Both the position numbers and the translations under genes were made by a program. The notes beneath the pieces were generated by a model. That model saw only the letters and a list, made by a program, of their open reading frames with translations. It ran no database searches and was not told the origin of the DNA. Shown in pieces: positions 7,688-22,055 of a DNA stretch of 30,743 bases (position 1 is its first letter; each line of letters starts with the position of its first letter). The stretch is taken from IMG/VR virus record IMGVR_UViG_3300011115_000892, positions 1 to 30,743 of that record; one strand, written 5' to 3'. This DNA is from a virus.

Positions 7688-8563
7688 ATGTCGAACACGA
7701 TTGCCGCGGCTCCCGCCGTTCTTTCCGAGCAGGTTCTGGCTGGCCTTAAGGGCCGCCTGGGCGTGATCTCTGGTTTCTCCACTAACCTCACCCCGACCGC
7801 GGTCGGCCGCACGATGCAGGTCAGCCTGATCGGTGGCGGCGCTGCCAAGGAGTTCGATAAGTCCGCTGGCGGCTATCACGAATCTTCTGCCGCCCAGATC
7901 ACGGCCAAGACCGTTACCCTTAAGCACCTGCATTCCACGAAGGATTTTAGCCCTGACGAATTGGCCGAATATGGTGAAGCCTATATGGTCAACGCCTTCG
8001 TTCCCCAGGCCATCAACGAACTTGTCGCGAAGGTTCACGCTGATATCGGCGCGCTCTTTACCCAGGCTAACTTCGCTGCCCAGGCTGGTATCGCCTTCAA
8101 TTCGTTTTCTTATAACGATGTTGTCGATCTGAACACCGACCTGAATGTTGCCAAGGCTGGCGATGTTCGCGGCCTGATCGTCAATTCGCAGTATGCTGGC
8201 GCGCTTCGCAAGGCCGCTATTCTTACCGCCCCGTTCTCTGGCGCTGGCGTTCCGAATGCCCTGGTTACTACGGGCGCAATCGGCCAGGTTGGCGGCTTTA
8301 ATGTTTTTGAGTTCACCGATCTTCCTGATCTGGGCGCTGGCCTGGGCGGCGTGGCGCTTGGCAGCGATGCCGTTTGCGTTGCGATGGCCCTGCCGAATGC
8401 CTCGATGTTCCCTGGTGAAGTTTCCCAGGCTGTCGATGCTTCTGGCCTTTCTGTCCAGGTGCTGAAGGCGCAGGGAACCGATGGCATCGTTCGCCTTACC
8501 GCCAGCATCCGCTTCGGCGTTGGCGTTGGCCGTTCGACCGCTGCTATTCGTATCTACGACTAA
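7688..8563 (+). CDS. Major capsid protein
   Basis: 291 aa, within the size range of HK97-fold shell proteins. The assignment is by position (after portal, protease and scaffold, with a strong terminator immediately downstream) and by composition: Ala/Gly/Val-rich, few cysteines, alternating helix and strand, and an N-terminal half containing the hallmark-like ITAKTVTLKHLHSTKDF. T-ending codons (TCT, GGT, GTT) are more frequent than in neighbours, as is common in very highly expressed phage genes. The leader is AT-rich. I see no cleavage signal that would place a mature N-terminus. Confidence 0.85.
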   Translation: MSNTIAAAPAVLSEQVLAGLKGRLGVISGFSTNLTPTAVGRTMQVSLIGGGAAKEFDKSAGGYHESSAAQITAKTVTLKHLHSTKDFSPDELAEYGEAYMVNAFVPQAINELVAKVHADIGALFTQANFAAQAGIAFNSFSYNDVVDLNTDLNVAKAGDVRGLIVNSQYAGALRKAAILTAPFSGAGVPNALVTTGAIGQVGGFNVFEFTDLPDLGAGLGGVALGSDAVCVAMALPNASMFPGEVSQAVDASGLSVQVLKAQGTDGIVRLTASIRFGVGVGRSTAAIRIYD

Positions 8564-8585
8564 TCGCTGCAAAGCGGTTCGTTTC

Positions 8586-8618
8586 AAAGGCCCGCCATTT
8601 CGGCGGGCCTTTTTGTTT
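8586..8618 (+). terminator. Rho-independent terminator after the capsid gene
   Basis: Perfect 11-bp stem AAAGGCCCGCC / GGCGGGCCTTT with the loop ATTTC, followed by TTGTTT. It lies 23 bp after the capsid stop and would strongly reduce read-through into the next unit. Confidence 0.93.
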
Positions 8619-8639
8619 CCCGCGCTGATCGGCTAAAAT

Positions 8640-8676
8640 AAAATAGTTTGACAACGGCGCAGGCCTGAAGTAGTAT
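8640..8676 (+). promoter_or_regulatory. Promoter of the isolated gene (early-type repeat promoter)
   Basis: -35 TTGACA (8648-8653), 17-bp spacer, -10 TAGTAT (8671-8676). The upstream bases AAATAGTTTGAC match the promoters found at 20541, 21305 and 21985, so it belongs to the same family. The predicted start near 8683 falls exactly at the foot of the first leader hairpin. Confidence 0.85.
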
Positions 8677-8682
8677 GTCAGA

Positions 8683-8700
8683 AGTTAAGGCAACTTAACT
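8683..8700 (+). promoter_or_regulatory. 5'-terminal mRNA hairpin with GCAA tetraloop
   Basis: AGTTAAG-GCAA-CTTAACT, a perfect 7-bp stem with a GNRA loop located at the predicted 5' end of the transcript. Hairpins at the extreme 5' end commonly protect mRNA from decay. Confidence 0.75.
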
Positions 8701-8718
8701 CTGATCTTTGACAACCCC

Positions 8719-8736
8719 TTCCCGCGCAAGCGGGGA
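8719..8736 (+). promoter_or_regulatory. Second leader hairpin with GCAA tetraloop
   Basis: TTCCCGC-GCAA-GCGGGGA, seven pairs including one G.T, again closed by GCAA. It lies 20 bp before the start codon at 8756. The A-rich stretch after it leaves the start codon free. Confidence 0.7.
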
Positions 8737-8755
8737 CTACAAAACCAAAACGCAA

Positions 8756-9124
8756 ATGAAACAACGCAAACCGAAACCGATCCGCTTCGATGTTCACCAT
8801 GACACGAACGGAATCATCGCCGCGACAATGGCCCTTCAGGCTTATTGGCAGGCAATCCGCAACCCGAAGGCTACCGAAGCCGAACAGAACGCAGCCCGCA
8901 AGGCGCTGGCCGATCTGGTCGAACTTCACGCAACCTGGGAACTTTCCACGGCAGGCCGCGCGGTCAGCCTGGGAAAGAACAAGCGCGGCGGCGATATAAC
9001 GGACGGCGGTAAGCCTGTCGGCTTCGCCTGGACTACCGCCCGTAGTCCTGACGATAGCGAACTCGGCAGGCTGTGGGCTGACGGCGATTTCGATACCGAA
9101 GGCCCGCGCTGCTTCCGATCCTAA
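8756..9124 (+). CDS. Orphan 122-aa protein in its own transcription unit (moron candidate)
   Basis: Starts at ATG 8756 (ACGCAAATG); an upstream TTG at 8708 is rejected because it lies inside the structured leader. The protein has a basic N-terminus (MKQRKPKPIRFDVHH), a helical Ala/Glu-rich middle (about 20-65) and a C-terminal part rich in Gly, Asp and Trp (GFAWTTARSPDDSELGRLW). No family is recognised. The gene is bounded by two terminators and has its own early-type promoter, which is the layout of a moron. Its codon and trinucleotide habits match the rest of the genome, so it is not a very recent arrival. A capsid accessory role is possible from its position, but early expression makes a host-directed or anti-defence function more attractive. 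Confidence 0.8.
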   Translation: MKQRKPKPIRFDVHHDTNGIIAATMALQAYWQAIRNPKATEAEQNAARKALADLVELHATWELSTAGRAVSLGKNKRGGDITDGGKPVGFAWTTARSPDDSELGRLWADGDFDTEGPRCFRS

Positions 9125-9128
9125 ACAC

Positions 9129-9162
9129 AAGGCCCGCCCTAACCAGGCGGGCCTTTTTTGTG
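9129..9162 (+). terminator. Rho-independent terminator after the isolated gene
   Basis: AAGGCCCGCC / GGCGGGCCTT stem around the loop CTAACCA, followed by a T6 run. CACAA before the stem and TTGTG after it could extend the pairing. The core stem matches that of the terminator at 8586. Confidence 0.93.
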
Positions 9163-9303
9163 CCTGCCTTCCTGGCGGGCTTGGCTGGTTGGGGTAGGGA
9201 TAGGCATAGGCCAGCCAGGGAACGGGCCGCTACGGGCCAGCCAGGCGGCAAAGCCAGGGCAGCCAGCGGGCGCGCCTGGTCGTTTGTCCCTGGCTGCAAC
9301 TAT
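9163..9303 (+). other. Non-coding G-rich spacer before the head completion gene
   Basis: About 140 bp with repeated GCCAGCCAGG strings (near 9211 and 9236) and a G-rich stretch at 9187-9204 (GG, GGGG, GGG, GG tracts). The frame of the next gene is open through it from a GTG at 9160, but the translation is low-complexity Arg/Gly/Ala/Pro and unlike the genuine protein. I see no promoter matching the early family. The downstream tail genes may need a late promoter here or read-through. Confidence 0.6.
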
Positions 9304-9636
9304 ATGGATAGCGCCCTGTCAGCCGCCTGGCTTGCCGATGCCCAGGCAATCGTTCTGGAGATCGGGCAAACCGTAACGGTCAACGGAACGGACTACCTGG
9401 CAACGGTCGGCGAACCTACCCTTACCCAATCCTTCGCGGCTGGCGGCCTATCCGATGTGGTCAGCGTTACCGTTCGGATTCCAGCAACGCCTGCCGCCCT
9501 GGCTGCGAATACGCATATGCAGATCGGCAAGACCATAACCTTTGACGGGCGCAGCCTGCGGGTTGTCGGCTTCAGCCATAAGCCTGGAACGGCCTGGCTG
9601 CAAATGACTACCCAGGACGCGGATAATTTCCGATGA
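9304..9636 (+). CDS. Head completion / head-tail stopper protein (FII-like position)
   Basis: 110 aa from ATG 9304 (AACTATATGG). The protein is beta-rich (QTVTVNGTDYLATVGEP, VVSVTVRIPATPA, GKTITFDGRSLRVVGFSHK), with a short N-terminal helix. Its size matches lambda gpFII (117 aa) and its place after the capsid gene and before the larger neck gene fits a stopper that closes the portal and contacts the tail. Its final codons overlap the next start (ATGA at 9633). The function is by synteny and secondary-structure impression, not by a signature motif. Confidence 0.62.
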   Translation: MDSALSAAWLADAQAIVLEIGQTVTVNGTDYLATVGEPTLTQSFAAGGLSDVVSVTVRIPATPAALAANTHMQIGKTITFDGRSLRVVGFSHKPGTAWLQMTTQDADNFR

Positions 9637-20546: not shown

Positions 20547-20589
20547 TTTGATTTGCCTATTGACGGTAGGGCAGGCCGTTCTACTGTCC
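20540..20589 (+). promoter_or_regulatory. Early promoter 1
   Basis: CAAATAGTTTG (20540-20550) followed by a second box TTGACG (20560-20565), 16-bp spacer, and -10 TACTGT (20582-20587). Either TTTG (20547) or TTGACG can be the -35; spacing favours TTGACG. It leads into the conserved leader CTGATATTCCTAACCCGC (20589-20606). Confidence 0.75.
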
Positions 20590-20620
20590 TGATATTCCTA
20601 ACCCGCAAAACCTACCCGAT

Positions 20621-20905
20621 ATGAAAACCAAACTGTTCCCCGTGATCATCCGCGAAATTGCTGGCAAGCCTACCCTGACCGTTGAAATGAACTTCAACGA
20701 AAAGGCCAACCAGCGCGGCGATGCCTGCGTTTGCTGCGGCAAGCGCCTGGTCGAAGGTTCTAACCTGTTCGCTCACTACGCGATCGCTGGCTATTGGATT
20801 CCCTTCGCGGAAAACCAGGACAACTGCGCGGTCAGCCAGGGCTGCTTCCCGATCGGTTCGGAATGCGCAAAGCGCTTCCCGAAGGAGTTTGTCGGCAGCA
20901 TCTAA
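20621..20905 (+). CDS. Early cysteine-rich small protein (94 aa)
   Basis: First gene behind early promoter 1, start in the context CCGATATG. Cysteines 36, 38 and 39 (CVCCGKRL), His52, and Cys 69, 75 and 82 (NCAVSQGCFPIGSEC) suggest a zinc-binding fold in two halves. Strands come first (LFPVIIREI, PTLTVEMNF), a short helix last (ECAKRFPKEF). No family recognised. Small metal-binding proteins at the front of early units often bind host factors, but there is no direct evidence here. Confidence 0.75.
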   Translation: MKTKLFPVIIREIAGKPTLTVEMNFNEKANQRGDACVCCGKRLVEGSNLFAHYAIAGYWIPFAENQDNCAVSQGCFPIGSECAKRFPKEFVGSI

Positions 20906-20912
20906 AAAAGAG

Positions 20913-20942
20913 TTTGACGCAGCCCAACCCCAGGCCTAACTT
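20913..20942 (+). promoter_or_regulatory. Early promoter 2
   Basis: -35 TTGACG (20914-20919), 17-bp spacer, -10 TAACTT (20937-20942), eight bases after the stop of the previous gene. It shares AGTTTGAC with the others but lacks the CAAATAG dyad and the conserved leader. Confidence 0.72.
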
Positions 20943-20963
20943 ATCAGAACTGAAAACCGCAAT

Positions 20964-21302
20964 ATGAATACCGCCCTGCCGATCTTCAACGAAGCCAATC
21001 ACAAAGCGCTTAAGAACTGCTGCTTCCTGGTCAGCGCCTGCGCGCAGATCGCTACGCTGCGCCGCCTGGTTGCCGAAGGCAAAGGCTTCGCCCAGATCAG
21101 CGTTGACGCGAACGGCAACCCGCGCCGCCGCCAGCCAGGCGATTGCTTCCCTGCCAAGGCGCTGCCGCTGGTTACGCATAGCGCCAACCTTTATGCTGGT
21201 TGGATTTGGCGCGATCTGCCCGAAGCGCCGAAGGATAAGGCCGAACTCCTGGCCTTCTGCCAGGCTGTTAAGGCCGCCTGGCCCAGGCATTATCGCGGCT
21301 AA
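20964..21302 (+). CDS. Early protein of unknown function (112 aa)
   Basis: Has its own promoter (20913). The N-terminal half is helical with a CCFLVSACAQ stretch, then GFAQISVDANGNPRRRQPGDCF, a small beta hairpin, and a C-terminal helix rich in Trp (YAGWIWRDLPEAPKD, VKAAWPRHYRG). Four cysteines are not arranged as a known zinc motif. No family recognised. TAA at 21300-21302 runs directly into the promoter for the next gene. Confidence 0.75.
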   Translation: MNTALPIFNEANHKALKNCCFLVSACAQIATLRRLVAEGKGFAQISVDANGNPRRRQPGDCFPAKALPLVTHSANLYAGWIWRDLPEAPKDKAELLAFCQAVKAAWPRHYRG

Positions 21303-21303
21303 A

Positions 21304-21341
21304 CAAATAGTTTGACATAGCACCAGGCTGATCTACTTTCC
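21304..21341 (+). promoter_or_regulatory. Early promoter 3 with dyad CAAATAGTTTG
   Basis: CAAA-TAG-TTTG dyad (21304-21314) overlaps -35 TTGACA (21312-21317). 16-bp spacer and -10 TACTTT (21334-21339). Read the Bacteroidota way it is TTTG-N19-TACTTTCC. The conserved leader CTGATATTCCTAACCCGC follows at 21341-21358. Confidence 0.85.
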
Positions 21342-21374
21342 TGATATTCCTAACCCGCAAAACACAACCCGCAT

Positions 21375-21602
21375 ATGAAACCCGCTAACGAAGTTCTGAT
21401 CGCCCTGCTGCGCCGCGCTGGCGATAACCTGAAGGCTGCCCGCGCTGCTGCCGATGCCGCCTGCGATCTGCACAACGGCCCGCAGGGCCATAGCACCGCC
21501 AGCCGCAAGGCTGCCAAGGCCGCGATCAAAACTTTCGAGGAAGCGCACGCGGCCTTCGTGTTCATCCGCGATAACGCTGCCGATGTTCTGAAGAACGGCT
21601 AA
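21375..21602 (+). CDS. Early protein of unknown function (75 aa)
   Basis: Starts at ATG 21375 (CCGCATATG) behind early promoter 3. Almost entirely helical and Ala-rich (EVLIALLRRAGDNLKAARAAA, ASRKAAKAAIKTFEEAHAAFVF), probably a helical hairpin. No family recognised. Followed 35 bp later by the next small gene with a CCTTTCCCA leader and no separate promoter. Confidence 0.72.
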   Translation: MKPANEVLIALLRRAGDNLKAARAAADAACDLHNGPQGHSTASRKAAKAAIKTFEEAHAAFVFIRDNAADVLKNG

Positions 21603-21637
21603 TCCTTTCCCAACCCTAACCCGCAACCCTACCCGTT

Positions 21638-21982
21638 ATGACTACCCGCAAAGCCAAGCCCGCCGTTCCGACCAGCCTTGACGATCCTGCCGTTAAGGCG
21701 GTTCGCGAATGCCTGCATATGTCCTGGGAACTTTCTGGCCTGGATGCCGAAACCTGCAGCGCCCAGGAACGCGAATGGGAAACCGCCCTGCGCGCCCAGC
21801 CTGCCGATCGCGAAGCGCTTACCGCGTTCAACTATTGGGCCGCCCAGCGCCGCAACGCGCGCGCCTACCAGGCCCGCTGCCGTGGCCTGCTGGTCGGCAT
21901 CAGCCAACTGCGGCCCGATGGATCATTTCCCCTGGTCGGCTGGCAGCGCGCCGCGAAGGAAGCCAAGCGCATCAACGGCTAA
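21638..21982 (+). CDS. Early protein of unknown function (114 aa)
   Basis: ATG 21638 (CCCGTTATG). Basic N-terminus (MTTRKAKPAVPTS), then helices (DPAVKAVRECLHMSWELS, EREWETALRAQPADREALTAF, YWAAQRRNARAYQARCRGLL) and a short C-terminal GSFPLVGWQRAAKEAKR. No family recognised. Shares the promoter of the gene at 21375. Its TAA (21980-21982) abuts early promoter 4. Confidence 0.72.
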   Translation: MTTRKAKPAVPTSLDDPAVKAVRECLHMSWELSGLDAETCSAQEREWETALRAQPADREALTAFNYWAAQRRNARAYQARCRGLLVGISQLRPDGSFPLVGWQRAAKEAKRING

Positions 21983-21983
21983 A

Positions 21984-22023
21984 CAAATAGTTTGACTATC
22001 CGCCCAGGCCTGCCCTACCTTCC
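21984..22023 (+). promoter_or_regulatory. Early promoter 4 with dyad CAAATAGTTTG
   Basis: CAAA-TAG-TTTG dyad (21984-21994), -35 TTGACT (21992-21997), 18-bp spacer, -10 TACCTT (22016-22021), then leader CTGATATTCCTAACCCGC (22023-22040). Nearly a copy of early promoter 3 with two more spacer bases. Confidence 0.82.
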
Positions 22024-22055
22024 TGATATTCCTAACCCGCAAACCCTAACCCGAT

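Follow-up and report, generated by a model that had tools for sequence, protein, structure and literature searches.

In a probably lytic phage, the stretch between the capsid gene and the head gene after it holds what we, by a slight leaning, take to be an exchangeable accessory gene, one that host RNA polymerase would transcribe soon after infection through a leader engaging Nus factors. The window (the whole stretch of DNA analysed, 30,743 nt) is the IMG/VR virus record IMGVR_UViG_3300011115_000892. After the capsid gene, whose stop is at 8563, a first-pass annotation of the same DNA had described a terminator, a sigma70-like promoter, a structured leader, an orphan ORF and a second terminator in succession, and all of these are present:

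7688..8563, + strand: gene for the major capsid protein, bordering the slot on its left (match to PHROG 283, major head protein, E 3.7e-9)
8586..8616, + strand: terminator T1 of the capsid gene, 11 bp with 8 GC pairs, of a type also found in empty phages
8636..8676, + strand: promoter, with the upstream block AAATAAAATAG, TTGACA at 8648-8653, 17 nt, and TAGTAT at 8671-8676; conserved in filled relatives
8683..8700, + strand: leader hairpin H1 (AGTTAAG-GCAA-CTTAACT), directly 5' of the boxA-like site
8702..8713, + strand: boxA-like element TGATCTTTGACA, top match of the Opitutales rRNA boxA matrix on both window strands; conserved in 16 leaders
8719..8736, + strand: leader hairpin H2, from folding and from covariation in clades B and C
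8756..9124, + strand: cargo ORF alpha (ATG at 8756), an orphan of 122 aa, pI 8.9
9129..9160, + strand: terminator T2 of the cargo gene, 10 bp with 8 GC pairs
9304..9636, + strand: next head gene, right border of the slot, its start judged from relatives

The downstream head gene had been thought to start at 9160; relatives place its start most likely at 9304. The stretch from T2 to this gene (9161-9303) is rich in GCCAGCC and is similar in filled and empty clade A relatives. A tRNA search found none.

The phage is a freshwater one and probably infects bacteria of the Opitutales (Verrucomicrobiota). Its TerL is 55-56% identical to two Opitutales MAG contigs (GTDB genomes), which indicates the host group to the extent that such contigs, which can be misbinned, are correctly assigned. 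A more distant relative is P8625, a phage of Opitutae. Alignment of the capsid to GTDB genomes gave no match, and the window capsid had none in INPHARED. The next head gene product is 81-89% identical (aa) in clade A and 49-62% in clades B and C. As a side observation, the window TerL, portal and next head gene are 82-92% identical to clade A, and the capsid (7688-8563) is 66-69% identical to clade A phages as against 72-75% to clades B and C; this suggests that the capsid gene was exchanged independently of these other genes.

Related contigs were fetched by their capsid, and each was read from the capsid end to the next head gene. Thirty-three contigs (window included) are readable at the slot, 17 filled and 16 empty. 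Six unrelated small orphan cargo families occupy the filled slots:

alpha: the window, L002, L003, L004, L005, and L006/L029 (cut off)
beta: L010, L012, L014
gamma: L015
delta: L018, L021
epsilon: L019, L020, L114
zeta: L023, L024
empty: L007, L008, L009, L011, L013, L016, L017, L022, L026, L027, L028, L030, L031, L033, L049, L050

Presence, absence and replacement are thus all seen at this locus in relatives, the very comparison that the first-pass annotation had proposed as a check, and its view of a self-contained swappable unit is strongly supported. On a tree of the downstream genes, slot state needs 13 changes, as many as when labels are shuffled (13.3), and slot state differs within the sister pairs L010/L007, L012/L013, L003/L026, and L018/L022. 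When filled and empty loci are aligned, the breaks fall at the terminators or close to them. Empty slots in clade A retain a T2-like loop (CTAACC), those of clades B and C retain T1, and L007 seems to retain a remnant of T2.

The two terminators are the strongest among 26 terminator-like sites in the 20 kb scanned. The total of such sites does not exceed that in shuffled sequence, so the case for the unit rests on strength, order, and conservation. T1 is ancestral and belongs to the capsid gene, since empty phages, among them the distant L064, and P8625 likewise have a T1-type terminator behind their capsid genes. The cassette is the part that comes and goes. Insulation on both sides, as originally described, holds in that T1 and T2 are both real; T1, however, is the capsid gene's own rather than the unit's. 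Phage T7 likewise has a terminator, T-phi, directly after its capsid gene (gene 10); the position is the same here, but an optional gene cassette may follow. Rfam returned nothing at gathering score, and weak Rfam matches at 8515-8619 were set aside as terminator look-alikes. In P8625, gp12 (L123 9311-9559), an 82-aa orphan gene, lies between two terminators after the coat gene, with neither promoter nor boxA.

Moron and other accessory loci of tailed phages share several features with this one: a single gene; its own promoter and terminator; a place among late genes; and a pattern of presence, absence, and replacement. The term moron, used in the earlier description, fits in the sense of a variable locus with its own signals. 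Its strict, prophage-expressed sense probably does not apply, since the phage looks lytic and the proteins scanned include no integrase match. The cassette differs further from moron loci in occupying one fixed slot, where promoter and leader are conserved while the ORF is exchanged, and in the rRNA-like character of its leader.

The cassette promoter (TTGACA-17-TAGTAT) matches the sigma70 type at 10 of 12 positions, and no other site in the scans has a perfect −35. Its −35 block, AAATAGTTTGAC, recurs in the early-type region of the window (at ~20544, there as TTTGAT, ~21308, and ~21988) and in relatives, an argument that one and the same host sigma is used. However, the −10 of these early-region sites is TACTTT/TACCTT and their leaders are unlike that of the cassette, so placing the promoter in the early-region family proved only half right: the −35 block is common, and the −10 and leader differ. 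A candidate second promoter, with its −35 at 8708 (the TTGACA inside the boxA-like site), was rejected, as no −10 lies 16-18 nt downstream. Within 20576-22053, three near-identical 5' leaders (CCTGATATTCCTAACCCGCAAA) stand behind AAACAAATAGTTTGAC-type promoters, before small orphan genes.

The leader is the most informative part of the unit. It is structured, as had been suggested, folding as two hairpins that flank the boxA-like site (z −2.2; relatives, −2.0 to −3.9). H1 has a different sequence in clades B and C and is still a hairpin, though a weak one in clade C (z −0.45). For H2, clades B and C show covariation: four pairs show double changes, and the covariation score was equalled in 0 of 500 shuffles. 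All 16 leaders examined, from three clades and cargo families alpha to zeta, share H1, TGWTCHTTGAMA and H2, together with an A-rich segment ahead of the ATG. The TGWTCHTTGAMA element stands 25-33 nt after the −10, and the distance from boxA to ATG is 42-68 nt. Nine of the 12 boxA positions are invariant across these divergent clades; indeed, 9 of the 22 invariant columns of the leader alignment fall within this 12-base motif.

This element resembles the boxA of host rRNA leaders. A 16S rRNA was found in 15 of 103 Opitutales genomes, yielding 13 readable leaders, all with boxA (consensus GTTCTTTGAAAGTTA); in many of these leaders the boxA follows a promoter and a hairpin. A matrix built from these 13 sites only, with no phage sites, ranks the window site first of ~61,000 positions on both strands. 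The leader site likewise ranks first in 14 of 15 filled loci and third in L003, although the phage leaders are homologous, so that their many matches are not independent tests. The window copy departs from the host consensus at two positions (A instead of T at position 3 and C instead of A at position 11); its score, 10.8, is reached in ~1% of random 192-nt leaders, and the better scores of relatives in 0.03-0.3%. Empty slots have no such boxA leader, and in nine other records, of which all or a large part was read, other high-scoring boxA sites do not stand in a comparable leader. A boxC-like block is present in 12 of 13 host leaders and in none of the 16 phage leaders, which therefore are not full rrn nut sites.

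Among known systems, the rrn leader (boxB-boxA-boxC) is similar in its sigma70 promoter, hairpin, and boxA, arranged here in the order of the Opitutales rRNA leaders. Two elements of an rrn-type leader are thus found, a boxA matching the host (with the window's two departures) and an upstream hairpin, and the boxC-like block is not. The phage cassette differs also in driving a protein gene and in having an extra hairpin, H2, before the ATG. The hairpin-then-boxA order is that of rRNA, the reverse of lambda nut (PMC6614801). The lambda nut/N system also combines a boxA-like element and a hairpin in a phage leader; here, in contrast, H1 precedes boxA, H2 follows but lies near the ATG, the boxA-then-boxB arrangement is not found, and a single gene takes the place of a long early operon. 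Leaders of suhB and of CRISPR arrays provide examples of boxA outside rRNA, where it represses suhB translation (PMC5725501) and prevents Rho termination of CRISPR arrays (as cited in PMC12691694). The phage leaders differ from both in serving cargo genes and in placing a hairpin on each side of boxA.

Could the boxA-like site be a product of chance, or derived from a promoter, leaving an ordinary accessory gene behind a generic leader? The window site does contain TTGACA (at 8708) and scores modestly. But the missing −10, the TTGAAA that most relatives have instead, and a core that is invariant while its flanks diverge over three clades make this explanation fairly unlikely. If the site is a functional boxA, it might act as in suhB: bound Nus factors would repress cargo translation, and the protein would be made only once these factors were titrated or changed in infection. 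The boxA lies at 42-68 nt from the ATG, and for suhB a trial of a wider spacing between boxA and Shine-Dalgarno sequence is on record, with simple steric occlusion excluded (PMC5725501). The phage leaders, however, have no Shine-Dalgarno sequence next to boxA, and a strong promoter with a 5' hairpin suggests high rather than damped expression, so that repression of this kind is improbable. The strong promoter and the lack of a Shine-Dalgarno sequence beside boxA lead us to favour antitermination or high processivity as the role of this element.

The cargo itself bears on two further alternatives. Homologues of alpha in IMG/VR contigs L002-L005 are 90-96% identical (aa), with a cut-off copy in L006, and dN/dS values of 0.06-0.17 (ten pairs) indicate purifying selection. 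The 122-aa protein was said to match no known family, and searches of Pfam, PHROGs, PADLOC, and INPHARED bear this out. The cargos are mostly basic. They have no recognisable fold or family and no family match to a known defence-related protein (PADLOC, Pfam, and PHROGs without significant match; PADLOC models describe defence rather than anti-defence). AlphaFold gave alpha a pLDDT of 43 from five near-identical sequences, with helices at 17-35 and 41-65 at low confidence; at pLDDT 43-45, the alpha and beta models are not usable for fold search. Comparison of cargo with cargo by tblastn gave no match among families; a resemblance between zeta and epsilon, noticed by eye, was dropped for want of a BLASTP alignment.

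A small, dispensable, variable product encoded next to the capsid gene could be a head decoration protein (Soc/Hoc-like), and strong expression from its own promoter would mean high copy number. Against this stand six unrelated sequences, mostly basic and with no match to a structural-protein family, and a rRNA-like leader and own terminator that set the cargo apart from late expression; decoration is unlikely. Even less probable, and in our judgement very doubtful, is that promoter and boxA form an antiterminating start for the head and tail genes beyond T2, the cargo being incidental. Those late genes do lie downstream on the same strand, and in vitro, intrinsic terminators can become less efficient in the presence of rrn complexes (PMC6614801). 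Yet 16 relatives without the cassette keep the same late genes, and the cargo is under purifying selection. A dispensable activity directed at the host or its defences is the most likely job that we infer for the cargo, given that close relatives carry different ones and that purifying selection nevertheless acts on it.

For the exchangeable accessory gene proposed at the outset, events might run as follows. Terminator T1 closes off the capsid gene and presumably sets how much capsid is made, as T-phi does in T7. Behind it, some phages carry the cassette: a host-sigma70-type promoter; a rRNA-like leader; one small exchangeable ORF; and T2. Comparison of relatives shows its gain, loss, and swap, probably through recombination at or near the terminators. 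Soon after infection, host RNA polymerase would initiate at the cassette, and as the leader emerged its boxA-like site would be bound by host NusB/S10 (NusE). The Nus-bound processive complex would guard the transcript from premature termination until T2. Despite its place among late genes, the cargo would be expressed early and at a high level. Promoter and rRNA-like leader together make early expression plausible.

The fuller proposal is an interchangeable cargo slot that imitates the host rRNA leader, its boxA recruiting Nus factors without a phage antitermination protein for strong, early, Rho-resistant expression; this is tentative, with somewhat less than an even chance of being right. 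If true, boxA-dependent regulation would reach phage accessory genes without an N protein. No report of a rRNA-type boxA leader on a phage accessory gene was found in the literature searched, which covered only a minority of subscription papers. The series of capsid terminator, promoter, hairpin, boxA, hairpin, and ORF could serve as a simple marker for accessory genes with fast turnover in phages that infect a little-studied group of bacteria; anti-defence genes may gather there.

Pattern searches extended the comparison beyond the capsid relatives. A whole-record pattern (TTGAMA...CAAATG) was dropped as too loose. Promoter and leader patterns run across IMG/VR added one new slot of this phage family (L114); outside the family's slots, the matches listed are chance ones, mostly within coding sequence. 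In 132 genomes of the host order, the promoter-plus-boxA pattern has a single match, G068:C7:15792-15856 (L122).
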